Source: Kaistia granuli DSM 23481
GTDB taxonomy: Bacteria > Pseudomonadota > Alphaproteobacteria > Rhizobiales > Kaistiaceae
DNA: 64,000 nucleotides
Direction: 5' to 3'
Assembly (NCBI RefSeq): GCF_000380505.1
Contig: NZ_AQYH01000010.1
Span: 496,001-560,000 of the forward strand
Shown here: positions 32,671-40,213 of the stretch, piece by piece
Layout of the letters: each line of letters begins with the position of its first letter
How positions within the stretch are numbered: the first letter of the stretch is position 1
Program-made: the position numbers and the translations under genes
The notes under the pieces: generated by a model
The model's database searches: none
The model's input: the letters and a program-made list of their open reading frames with translations, nothing else
What the model was told of the DNA's origin: nothing

Positions 32671-34080
32671 CTATTCGGCGGCGGCGACGGAGGCCGGGCC
32701 GTTCAGCCAGGCGGCGGCATCGGCGCGGGCGCGCGCCGTCAGGGCCTTCTTCTTGGCGACGGTCTTGTCGGTGCCGCGCAGCTTGACGCCCGGCTCCTTG
32801 GGGATCTCCACCGGCGGGAACAGACCGAAATTGACGTTCATCGGCTGGAACGACCGGCTGCCGGCTTCCTCGTCGACGAGGTGGCCGCCGGTGATGTGGC
32901 CGAGCAGGGCGCCGAAAGCCGTGGTAGCGGGCGGCGGCACCGGCACTTCGCCGAGACGCTCGGCGGCGGCGAAGCGGCCGGCCAGCAGGCCGATCGCGGC
33001 GGATTCGACATAGCCTTCGCAGCCGGTGATCTGGCCGGCGAAGCGCAGCCGCGACTGGGCCTTGAGGCGCAGCAACGGGTCGAGCAGCTTCGGCGAGTTC
33101 AGGAAGGTGTTGCGGTGCAGGCCGCCGAGGCGCGCGAACTGGGCGTTCTCGAGCCCGGGGATCATGCGTAGCACGTCGGTCTGAGCGCCGTATTTCAGCT
33201 TCGTCTGGAAGCCGACCATGTTGTAGAGCGTGCCGAGCGCATTGTCCTGGCGGAGTTGGACGATGGCATGCGCCTTGACGGTCGGGTTGCGCGGATTGGT
33301 GAGGCCGACCGGCTTCATTGGGCCGAAACGAAGCGTCTCGCGGCCGCGCTCCGCCATGATCTCGATCGGCAGGCAACCGTCGAAATACGGCGTCGAGGCT
33401 TCCCAATCCTTGAAATCGGTCTTGTCGCCGGCGATCAGCGCGTCGAGGAAGGCGTTGTACTGCGCCTCGTCCATCGGGCAGTTGATGTAGTCGGCGCCGT
33501 TGCCGCCCGGCCCGACCTTGTCGTAGCGCGACTGGAACCAGGCAACGTCCATATTGATCGAGTCGAAATAGATGATCGGCGCGATGGCGTCGAAAAAGGC
33601 GAGCGAATCGGCGCCGGTCAGGTCGCGGATGGCTTCGGACAGCGCCGGCGAGGTGAGGGGGCCGGTCGAGACGATGACATTGTCCCATTCGGCCGGCGGC
33701 AGGCCGTCGATCTCGCGGCGGTCGATGGTGACGAGCGGGTGGTCTTCCAGCGCCTTGGTGACGGCCTGTGAGAAGCCGTCGCGATCGACGGCGAGCGCGC
33801 CGCCCGCAGGCACCTGGTTGCTGTCGCCCATCCGCATGATCAGCGAATTGGCCATCCGCATCTCGGCATGCAGCAGGCCGACCGCATTGGTCTCGGCGTC
33901 ATCCGAACGGAAGGAGTTGGAGCAGACGAGCTCGGCCAGGCCGTCCGTCTTGTGCGCATCCGTGGCGCGGACGGGCCGCATCTCGTGCAGGACGACGGGG
34001 ATGCCGCGATTGACGATCTGCCAGGCAGCTTCCGTGCCGGCCAGTCCGCCGCCGATGATGTGAATTGGATCTGTTTTCAT
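32671..34080 (-). CDS. trmFO: tRNA (uracil-5-)-methyltransferase TrmFO
   Basis: A 469-aa FAD- and folate-dependent enzyme that makes 5-methyluridine-54 in tRNA. The FAD-binding [16 protein letters not shown] starts at residue 7, and [23 protein letters not shown] is the catalytic-domain signature. The C-terminal [17 protein letters not shown] and NVNFGLFPP are also typical. I chose ATG 34080 over the longer frame to 34116 because the Rossmann motif then starts at its usual distance. Confidence 0.96.
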
Positions 34081-34142
34081 GGCGCGGAGATTATTGCGCC
34101 GGAGCGGTTCGGACAACCGCGCAAATGCCGGTTCGGCCCGGA

Positions 34143-34258
34143 CAAAAGGAAACGCCCGCCGGGGAGGAGGTCGGCGGGCGTCTCTTCTGATGGCGCTTCG
34201 CGAGGGAGGAGGTTCGCTAGCGCCGGATCGCAGGGAACAAGGGAGGAGGTTTGTTCCC
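34143..34258 (-). ncRNA. Cuckoo-type RNA: three hairpins with anti-SD loops
   Basis: Downstream of the DUF1127 stop, read on the minus strand, come three hairpins. Arms are 34233-34240/34251-34258; 34192-34203/34214-34224 (4+6 bp with a small internal loop); and 34152-34161/34172-34181 (10 bp). Each loop contains the same decamer, ACCTCCTCCC on the RNA strand, complementary to Shine-Dalgarno sequences. The last hairpin is followed by GTTTCCTTTTG and is also an intrinsic terminator. DUF1127 followed by such loops is the layout of alphaproteobacterial cuckoo RNAs (CcsR of Rhodobacter). Family membership is from memory. Confidence 0.75.
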
Positions 34259-34277
34259 GCGCGAATTTCGTATCGGC

Positions 34278-34436
34278 TTAGTAACCGGCCGACTGCTTGG
34301 CAATCTGGGTGATGTCACCGCGATTGATACCAAGGTCATTGAGCTCGCGGTTCGTCAGGCGCATCAACTCGCCATAAGTCTCGCGGTACTTGCGCCAGTT
34401 CTTGTAGGAAGCGAGGATGTTCACGGACACGGTCAT
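34278..34436 (-). CDS. DUF1127 small protein
   Basis: A 52-aa protein starting [19 protein letters not shown] and ending [12 protein letters not shown]. The arginine-rich helix and the core '[15 protein letters not shown]' are the DUF1127 signature. In Rhodobacter the protein next to cuckoo RNAs (CcaF1) is reported to bind RNA; this homologue may do the same, by inference. The ATG at 34436 follows AAGGAAT; the longer frame lacks similarity. The gene and the RNA hairpins after it are probably one transcript from which sRNAs are cut. Confidence 0.9.
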
Positions 34437-34508
34437 ATTCCTTCGGACAATCGGACATCTGGGGCAGCGGGGAAGTTCTGTTTCGGTCCCGCCGTCCTTG
34501 TTGATCCG

Positions 34509-34533
34509 AATATAGGAGAAGCCCGCGCAAAGG
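34509..34533 (-). promoter_or_regulatory. Possible promoter of the DUF1127/cuckoo locus
   Basis: On the minus strand, CCTTTGCG (34526-34533) and CCTATATT (34509-34516) resemble -35 and -10 elements of an alphaproteobacterial heat-shock-type (RpoH) promoter, about 75-95 bp before the ATG. The match at -35 is imperfect. Confidence 0.3.
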
Positions 34534-34596
34534 AGCACTGCGAGAATTCGCATGGCTGTCTTGCATATGATGCAGGGCAGCAATCGATTCTGATTA

Positions 34597-34615
34597 AATA
34601 TTGCACTGCAATATT
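34597..34615. promoter_or_regulatory. AT-rich inverted repeat with TGC-N3-GCA core
   Basis: AATATTGCA (34597-34605), C, TGCAATATT (34607-34615) is a perfect 9-bp inverted repeat in the divergent region between the DUF1127 gene and the gene at 34702. The core TGCACTGCA resembles sites of the PHB regulator PhaR/AniA. The regulator is not identified. Confidence 0.4.
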
Positions 34616-34701
34616 GCTCAAGCGGGCATCACTGGGCCAGTATGAAGGCCGGTTCGGGCCGCCTGCGGCCACTCACCAGCGAACCGTGCGGGGAAGATCG
34701 G

Positions 34702-35286
34702 ATGTTGAACAGAAGCGCCCTCGGCGGCCTCGTCGCCGGGCTCATCCTTGCGCTTGCCGGTCCCGCCGCTGCCCAGGGCCTGGCTCCGGTCAAGATCCGC
34801 TACTGCCATGGCTTCGGCTGCAAGATGCGCTCGCCCGTGACGTTCTCCAGCGGCGATCTCGCCGCCCTGAAGCGGATCCTGGATGTGGGACGGGGTAGTC
34901 CGGCGGCTGAGCGCGCCGCGATCTCGCGCGCCGACCAGTGGTACGAGCGCAAGGCCGGCGCGCAGACCGGTACCTCGGGCGACGACGCCAAGGGCGAGTT
35001 CGGGCTCTACACGCCGCTGTCGCAGCTCGATTGCGTCGACGAGATGACCAATACGACGACGCTGCTCAAGCTTCTGGCCAAGCAAGGCTGGTTGCGGCAC
35101 CACACGGTTGGCCCCTCCGCCAGCCGCGGCGTGCTGTTCGACGGCCGCTATCCGCACAACACCGCCACGATCGTCGAGACGGCCAGCGGCAAGCGCTGGG
35201 TGGTCGACAGCTGGGTGCGCGCCAATGGCGAGCCGCCGGATATCAAACTGCACGACATCTGGAAACAGGAAGGCCGGCGCGGTTAG
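34702..35286 (+). CDS. Secreted protein, possible transglutaminase-like cysteine hydrolase
   Basis: A 194-aa protein I do not recognise as a named family. The signal peptide (MLNRSALGGLVAGLILALAG, then PAAAQG) is clear. The mature part has a C35-x4-C40 pair, and C111 (LDCVDEMTNTTTLL), H152 (YPHNTATIVE) and D169 (WVVDSW). Their order and spacing recall the Cys-His-Asp triad of bacterial transglutaminase-like cysteine proteinases. Such activity is inference. The ATG at 34702 has GGGGAAG upstream. It stands alone, with a symmetric operator-like site 87-105 bp upstream. Confidence 0.7.
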   Translation: MLNRSALGGLVAGLILALAGPAAAQGLAPVKIRYCHGFGCKMRSPVTFSSGDLAALKRILDVGRGSPAAERAAISRADQWYERKAGAQTGTSGDDAKGEFGLYTPLSQLDCVDEMTNTTTLLKLLAKQGWLRHHTVGPSASRGVLFDGRYPHNTATIVETASGKRWVVDSWVRANGEPPDIKLHDIWKQEGRRG

Positions 35287-40020: not shown

Positions 40021-40116
40021 GTGCCGTTGCCGCGATGCTGTTGCATCGGCACGCAAGCTCCGGCTAAGAGGGGAGTATTCGACTGGACCCGGTGCAAATC
40101 CGGGTGGCTCTTCCGG
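40021..40116 (+). ncRNA. Structured leader upstream of SulP gene
   Basis: Within the 318-base gene-free region 39896-40213. GTGCC (40021-40025) pairs with GGCAC (40048-40052), enclosing GATGC/GCATC (40034-40038/40043-40047). Next, CCGG plus AAGAG (40060-40063, 40066-40070) pairs with CTCTT plus CCGG (40108-40116). This encloses the hairpin ACCCGG-TGCAAAT-CCGGGT (40087-40105). The hairpin resembles the GGTG-N-AA-N-TCC element of B12 riboswitches, but the rest of that riboswitch is missing. A 'sul1' RNA motif is known upstream of alphaproteobacterial SulP genes; I cannot confirm a match. Another stem, CGGCCGG/CCGGCCG, is at 39981-40001. Confidence 0.45.
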
Positions 40117-40213
40117 CCGCCGATCCGCCGGACCACGCAGATGACTTGATGGATTTCCTCACCGCCGTCCTGGCCGTGTCGATACGTGCATCTGCCGCGA
40201 AGCATTCCAACCC

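Follow-up and report, generated by a model that had tools for sequence, protein, structure and literature searches.

A DUF1127 gene of Kaistia granuli with an ar14 (cuckoo-type) small RNA as its likely 3′ UTR and a LysR-type box upstream

The 64,000-nt stretch of the Kaistia granuli DSM 23481 genome analysed here (the window) encodes a small DUF1127 protein on its minus strand, and we consider it quite probable that the mRNA of this gene carries an ar14 (cuckoo-type) small RNA (sRNA) as its 3′ UTR, under an activator of the LsrB/VtlR kind and with loops that block Shine-Dalgarno (SD) sequences. In the proposed mechanism, this LysR-type activator would turn on a weak sigma-70-type promoter with an inferred start near position 34503, and the resulting single transcript of about 355 nt would, judged by its sequence, end at the third hairpin of the array and be translated into the 52-aa DUF1127 protein. 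The array would then probably be cut off near the stop codon as one stable RNA of about 120 nt, whose three identical loops would imitate the anti-SD tail of the 16S rRNA, cover the SD of chosen mRNAs, above all those of nutrient-uptake genes, and so lower their translation. The family match, covariation, synteny, paralogy and promoter box were read directly in the sequence, while processing, target pairing and the identity of the activator are carried over from studied relatives and would hold here by analogy.

The three-hairpin array and its DUF1127 gene

The DUF1127 gene, a 52-aa reading frame that an earlier note on this DNA had placed upstream of the hairpins, spans 34278–34436 (−), and its product matches Pfam PF06568 (E = 7.8e-14). 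It is preceded by a weak SD, GAAGGA at 34439–34444 (−), without GGAGG, so that the array should pair little with its own DUF1127 message. Only 8 nt separate the stop codon from the array in the window, which leaves no room for a separate intergenic promoter. The array itself (34147–34269, −) is placed as the 3′ UTR of the gene and was matched end to end by the ar14 model in an Rfam search of the whole window (RF02344, model positions 1–123 of 123 nt; 71.3 bits over a gathering cut-off of 58.8, E = 7.2e-11), the kind of covariance-model search for cuckoo RNAs that the note had proposed. Beyond ar14, the window-wide search at curated cut-offs returned nothing but one sul1 RNA (RF03058) at 40082–40137 (+), with 77.3 bits against a cut-off of 36.2.

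As the note had described, the array consists of three minus-strand hairpins that share a decamer loop and differ from one another in their stems. Hairpin 1 covers 34228–34264 (loop ACCTCCTCCC at 34250–34241), hairpin 2 covers 34192–34224 (loop at 34213–34204), and hairpin 3 with its T-rich tail covers 34143–34189 (loop at 34171–34162), each seen both in the fold and in covariation, as helices 1–2, 3–4 and 5, respectively. In the predicted fold the decamer is the whole 10-nt loop of each hairpin, and the array reaches −64.7 kcal/mol (z = −6.55), with none of 200 shuffles as good. It bears the trait of ar14, the motif CCUCCUCCC unpaired in each of three loops on variable stems. By count alone, three CCTCCTCCC in 64 kb are not rare (1.04 expected on average, three or more in 10 of 100 shuffles); three motif copies within 100 nt on one strand occurred in none of 300 Markov-1 windows. 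Hairpin 3 is followed on the minus strand by TTTCCTTTT, which makes plausible the role of probable intrinsic terminator earlier given to it, although a strict scan of 34050–34700 returned no terminator, as a scan that admits loops of 3–8 nt where hairpin 3 has 10.

What had been called a CcsR-like cuckoo array keeps its cuckoo type and its DUF1127 link, but not its place next to CcsR: the CcsR1 model (RF02791) scores 35.4 bits on it, below a cut-off of 65.3, and on these scores the nearest defined family is ar14/NfeR1. Since what is conserved is a single three-hairpin RNA of about 120 nt, one sRNA is more likely than three. A cuckoo RNA family associated with DUF1127 genes was reportedly described by Reinkensmeier and Giegerich in 2015. 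The locus has the arrangement of such RNAs, with CCUCCUCCC hairpins immediately after a short DUF1127 gene, an association that goes under the name CIN1 (PMC10253847, citing Reinkensmeier and Giegerich 2015). Matches of Rhizobiales-2 and CC3664 at the array stay below their own cut-offs and were taken as side-effects of the shared motif. With respect to AbcR (ar15), the suhB model RF00519 has no match at the locus; its sole match in the genome lies at C2:164847, and was rejected as an AbcR–lsrB neighbour because no LysR gene is evident there on inspection of the frames of at least 200 aa.

The K. granuli genome (4.77 Mb, 20 contigs) holds three ar14 copies over the cut-off, all directly 3′ of a DUF1127 gene, and at its other two DUF1127 genes, out of five in all, array and box are both absent. 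Sub-threshold matches to the anti-hemB, SorY and SorX RNAs were noticed in the sequence flanking the third unit (L003, 2123–2214, minus). The first gene downstream of the window array on its strand is trmFO (tRNA U54 methyltransferase, 32671–34080, −; NCBIfam TIGR00137, 535.5 bits), which is a conserved neighbour and for which we claim no membership in the DUF1127–array unit. On the other side lies a divergent gene (34642–35286, +) with an apparent signal peptide, whose product matches nothing in Pfam or NCBIfam at E 0.001 and which shares the intergenic region that contains a 19-bp palindrome.

Conservation in the genus and the family

Across 61 genomes, that of K. granuli and those of 60 relatives, ar14 was matched at E up to 0.001 in 37 and over the cut-off in 23, giving 82 matches in total and 79 outside the K. 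granuli genome. All 14 genomes of the genus have two to five matches each, or two to four once two spurious ones are removed; these weak matches (L162 and L184), at which no DUF1127 gene and no box were found (best sites with 7 and 8 mismatches), stand outside all genus counts. We examined 63 arrays, namely the three K. granuli copies and 60 stretches from relatives (two of which hold two matches, with one used from each), and found a DUF1127 gene just upstream in 54 and trmFO downstream on the same strand in 29. In every one of the 14 genus genomes trmFO follows an array on the same strand after 61–116 nt, and in other genera of the family it lies downstream in all 13 genomes with an ar14 match, within 300 nt in 11; the fourteenth such genome (G024) has no ar14 match. 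Two genomes from other families (G053 and G043) have trmFO farther from the array, at about 1 and 2 kb. In three genomes of one genus (G019, G023 and G025; loci L207, L211 and L212) the trmFO-side array is hairpin-like with degenerate loops, no DUF1127 gene was found at it, and it is apparently decaying.

The alignment for compensatory changes that the earlier note had suggested was made from 34 of the 44 genus arrays, setting aside one truncated array and nine whose first hairpin is altered, an omission that may flatter the pair counts of hairpin 1. Supplied with no structure, RNAalifold recovered the three hairpins from these arrays, and 15 of the 31 pairs show double compensatory changes with the pair kept. 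Paired cells amount to 98.5%, and double-change cells number 60 against 12.4 in shuffles, none of 500 being as high, with shuffles that ignore relatedness. None of the slid versions of the consensus structure came near the real one, in a control that favours this structure as it derives from the same alignment, and the count of further pair types was equalled by 15 of 500 shuffles. The loops are near-fixed rather than wholly so, with ATCTCCTCCC, CCCTCCTCCC and two single changes seen. Stems thus covary while loops mostly stay, the opposite of the pattern (stems not preserved, loops varying) that the note had named as contrary evidence. Across the family, 20 trmFO-linked arrays gave a poorer consensus fold than the genus set (24 pairs, with hairpins 1 and 2 partly recovered), because their stems diverge too far for that alignment.

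One DUF1127–ar14 unit of a sister species (G013:C3, L198) has lost its DUF1127 gene by a deletion that begins in the 5′ UTR, ends near the stop codon and keeps the box, the promoter, the three hairpins and the T-rich tract. That box and array are kept without the gene argues that such an array works without its own DUF1127 protein in cis, and the deletion amounts to a natural version of a test of protein versus sRNA.

Promoter and LysR-type box

Upstream of the DUF1127 gene, the minus strand carries a perfect 19-bp palindrome, AATATTGCAGTGCAATATT (34597–34615), whose conserved columns in the genus alignment read TGC-N3-GCA; a composite LysR-type (LsrB/VtlR-like) box, TGCTGCCCTGCATCATATGCAAGACAGCCATG (34551–34582), which was found by genome scan and genus alignment and holds TGCA-N6-GCA at 34574–34562; and a predicted promoter (34510–34537) with −35 TGCTCC (34537–34532), a spacer of 16 and −10 CTATAT (34515–34510). 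Genus orthologs and paralogs repeat this order upstream of DUF1127, with TGC-N3-GCA, then TGYTGCYNTGCRTNNNNNGCANNNCNGSCATG, then TGCTC, 16 nt and CTANAT. Allowing at most two mismatches, the box has three sites in the K. granuli genome, all at DUF1127–ar14 units (none in the reversed control), and precedes 44 of 44 genus arrays, the same arrays from which the pattern was read; in the seven genus genomes of an order-wide search, 25 of 26 sites lie at such units. The −35 is TGCTC or TGCAC in 43 of the 44 genus promoters and the spacer, read by script, is 16 in 32 of them, while TTG occurs anywhere 5–25 nt after the box in six. A sigma-70 scan of 34050–34700 returned nothing, and so missed the proposed promoter as well.

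The box resembles published sites of LsrB and VtlR. In the nfeR1 promoter, which LsrB is described to activate, the LsrB site TGCA-N6-GCAT is given at −72 to −60 (a motif of 14 nt in a stretch of 13, as printed; PMC10746234); the window has TGCA-N6-GCAA, identical in 7 of 8 letters and at about −71 to −59 of the inferred start, and we regard it as a putative site. The second half of the box, CAAGACAGCCATGCG, agrees in 12 of 15 positions with the Brucella VtlR motif CAATGCAGCCATGCA (PMC12595884). A LysR gene (2953–3873 of L258) directly follows trxB (frame 1847–2941) in the K. granuli genome, the synteny described for vtlR (PMC7486931), and is by this synteny a putative LsrB/VtlR gene, although no equivalog model names it. 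LsrB/VtlR regulons are reported to differ strongly between species (PMC7486931), a point against carrying the regulator over. In the same genome, a shorter core of the box (TGCR-N6-GCA-N3-C-N-GC-N2-TG) has seven sites against three in the control and is not specific outside promoters; three of the seven are relevant, at the window unit, at the C7 unit (read from the opposite strand) and at a small gene on C6. This last copy (L301, G000:C6:160053–160076, minus), which comes close to the nfeR1-type form, lies upstream of a gene whose product, another arginine-rich protein (about 52 aa), matches DUF3563 below threshold (E = 7.8e-4); the gene may be another target of the same LysR-type regulator.

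Across the order, the long element was matched in 62 of 297 genomes, with 63 matches outside the genus compared to nine in the reversed control. Nineteen of the 63, hand-picked as motif-like and therefore biased in rate, were inspected: a DUF1127 gene lies at most 900 nt downstream in 13, L267 has an array but no DUF1127 gene, and the remaining five lack both. The shorter core was also scanned on named contigs, a set of at least 120 loci (not a census, with orders assigned by reading record titles and eight loci titled outside the alphaproteobacteria) in which we counted, among the matches listed, 127 arrays preceded by 420 nt or more of sequence. It precedes 59 of these 127, whereas the opposite strand gives two and 1270 shuffles give one. 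By the first array per locus among the matches listed, it is found in 33 of 83 loci of Hyphomicrobiales, 16 of 19 of Rhodobacterales, two of four with unclear title and none of eight from outside the alphaproteobacteria, with six loci short of upstream sequence. The order is box–DUF1127–array in 34 of the 127 arrays among the matches listed, while in two the box stands between gene and array and in 23 there is no DUF1127 gene and the box is at most 130 nt from the first loop, usually 84–94 nt. The other 68 among the matches listed (50 without and 18 with DUF1127) lack the exact core, a further point against our reading; eight of them come from outside the alphaproteobacteria, and some have a looser form, with L053, L106 and L112 scoring high on the genus matrix. 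The core box is thus common at arrays, but not universal.

Several Rhodobacterales loci (L035, L066, L087, L099, L109 and others) have a second conserved element, ATTGTGCA-N3-GCAGC, about 11–12 nt after the LysR-type box that precedes the DUF1127 genes of their CcsR-like arrays; this element may combine a −35 region with a half site. In Brucella rhizosphaerae (L085), a DUF1127 gene is followed by a four-loop array whose first motif begins 30 nt after the first base of the stop codon, and the core box stands 297 nt before that motif.

We give about even chances to the broader idea that a single LsrB/VtlR-type box is the ancestral switch for both DUF1127 genes and cuckoo/ar14 arrays in Hyphomicrobiales and Rhodobacterales, with the lineages shuffling the parts behind it into box–DUF1127–array (this genus, Mesorhizobium, Rhodobacterales), box–array (many Rhizobium loci, NfeR1) and box–DUF1127 without array. 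If this is true, part of what is ascribed to small DUF1127 proteins or to the LysR regulator may be due to the 3′ UTR sRNA of the same mRNA, and the CcsR-type operons of Rhodobacterales would have an overlooked LysR input.

The promoter also bears on whether the array is instead an NfeR1-like sRNA transcribed on its own, from a promoter within the DUF1127 frame, and merely positioned behind that gene, which we think unlikely. NfeR1 is indeed published as an independent transcript from CTTAGAC-N17-CTATAT (PMC10746234), which speaks against our own reading as does its −35 when set beside TGCTCC, and the 23 listed arrays with a nearby box and no DUF1127 gene point the same way; in the genus, however, box and −35/−10 precede the DUF1127 gene, the sigma-70 scan found nothing within the gene either (with the reservation given above), and the G013 array retains the same promoter after gene loss.

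It is rather improbable that the locus is a CcaF1–CcsR operon of the Rhodobacter type, under RpoH and cut into several short sRNAs. In R. sphaeroides, CcsR1–4 are described as cut from the ccaF1 3′ UTR by RNase E with the help of the CcaF1 protein (PMC10253847, PMC8625941), and transcription as driven by RpoHI/RpoHII (PMC10253847), another point against an LsrB/VtlR-type switch here. Gene order, loop motif and DUF1127 partner are all alike and the CcsR1 model does give a score, but one under its cut-off, the 34 aligned genus arrays (with the ten set aside above) share one three-hairpin layout, and the −35 letters and rarity of TTG in the genus promoters speak against an RpoH promoter, in a comparison that held no RpoH model. 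On the same promoter comparison, the heat-shock control earlier suggested for this locus is unsupported. An oxidative link is possible by analogy, because LsrB is described with a potential redox-sensing function (PMC11975290). For an S. meliloti DUF1127 gene, uORF-dependent attenuation is reported (PMC12218461), which again differs from the control by an LsrB/VtlR-kind activator that we prefer.

Related systems and candidate targets

The locus itself is ordinary, since both its family and its link to DUF1127 have been described before: for ar14 RNAs the three hairpins, the loop motif, the variability of the stems, the multiple copies and the association with DUF1127 are all on record, as is, separately, the control of nfeR1 and of DUF1127 genes by LsrB/VtlR. 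The less expected part is the LysR-type box common to two orders, and in the open-access literature, as far as its available text goes, we found no publication that joins LsrB/VtlR control, DUF1127 genes and CcsR/ar14 sRNAs. One promoter element, and often one transcript, seems to unite LsrB/VtlR-activated DUF1127 genes with the anti-SD sRNAs of the NfeR1/CcsR kind, and this would allow the shares of DUF1127 protein and 3′ UTR sRNA in a DUF1127 or LsrB phenotype to be separated.

The closest known RNA is the ar14 member NfeR1 (Smr14C2/SmelC397) of Sinorhizobium meliloti, RF02344, which has three hairpins with identical CCUCCUCCC loops on variable stems, the same length of 123 nt, several copies per genome and, as reported, an LsrB site about as far from its start as the putative one of the window is from the inferred start. 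In contrast to NfeR1, a 123-nt transcript described with its own promoter and −35 CTTAGAC, the window array stands behind a DUF1127 gene with the box before that gene and −35 TGCTCC, a layout that suggests processing from a longer transcript. CcaF1–CcsR1–4 of Rhodobacter sphaeroides, a CIN1 locus with cuckoo RNAs, likewise has a DUF1127 gene followed by same-loop hairpins that give 3′-UTR sRNAs; it differs by four RNAs instead of three hairpins, by the below-cut-off CcsR1 score and by a reported RpoHI/RpoHII promoter where we find a LysR-type box. The VtlR-activated DUF1127 genes of Brucella and Agrobacterium share with the window unit a LysR regulator next to trxB and a related box, whereas the passages available describe them as protein genes (Atu1667 as a putative sRNA) and leave a 3′ UTR array unmentioned. 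AbcR1/AbcR2 (ar15) are likewise described as anti-SD motif sRNAs acting on transporter mRNAs, some of them VtlR/LsrB-activated, but they form another family, with two motifs and Hfq binding, that has no match at the window locus. As for the DUF1127 proteins themselves, RNA versus protein binding is disputed (PMC12501420).

The loops have ACCTCCT in common with the K. granuli 16S rRNA 3′ end, which makes their pairing with SD sequences, as the earlier note had it, a candidate mode of action. For NfeR1, the three loops are described to silence target mRNAs redundantly, and its predicted targets, of which ntrB was tested, are mostly transport genes (PMC10746234, PMC7143759). That the hairpins merely terminate and stabilise the DUF1127 mRNA, with loops that have no target, is highly improbable, for while hairpin 3 does end in a T-rich tract and the structure is stable, loop letters are mostly kept where stem letters change in pairs, the array outlives the deletion of DUF1127 in G013, and in NfeR1 these same loops are published to silence targets redundantly.

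On the reading of the array as an SD-blocking 3′ UTR sRNA, the perfect 9-mer in the arrangement GGGAGGAGG-N3-9-ATG occurs nowhere in the whole genome (one site in the control), which counts against it, and the 8-mer GGAGGAGG-N3-10-ATG has 21 sites in the genome versus three in the control; eight of the 21 begin a reading frame of 150 aa or more. By Pfam, four of these eight candidate targets are parts of ABC transporters, namely a permease, two solute-binding proteins and a frame with a TOBE domain that looks like an internal start; the set fits the published target class of NfeR1, in a fit made with no background comparison. The other four are HSP33, a carbamoyltransferase, an AHSA1 protein and one without family, and the HSP33 and carbamoyltransferase sites both look internal. 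The two solute-binding-protein genes (L286 and L297) are the most convincing candidate targets.
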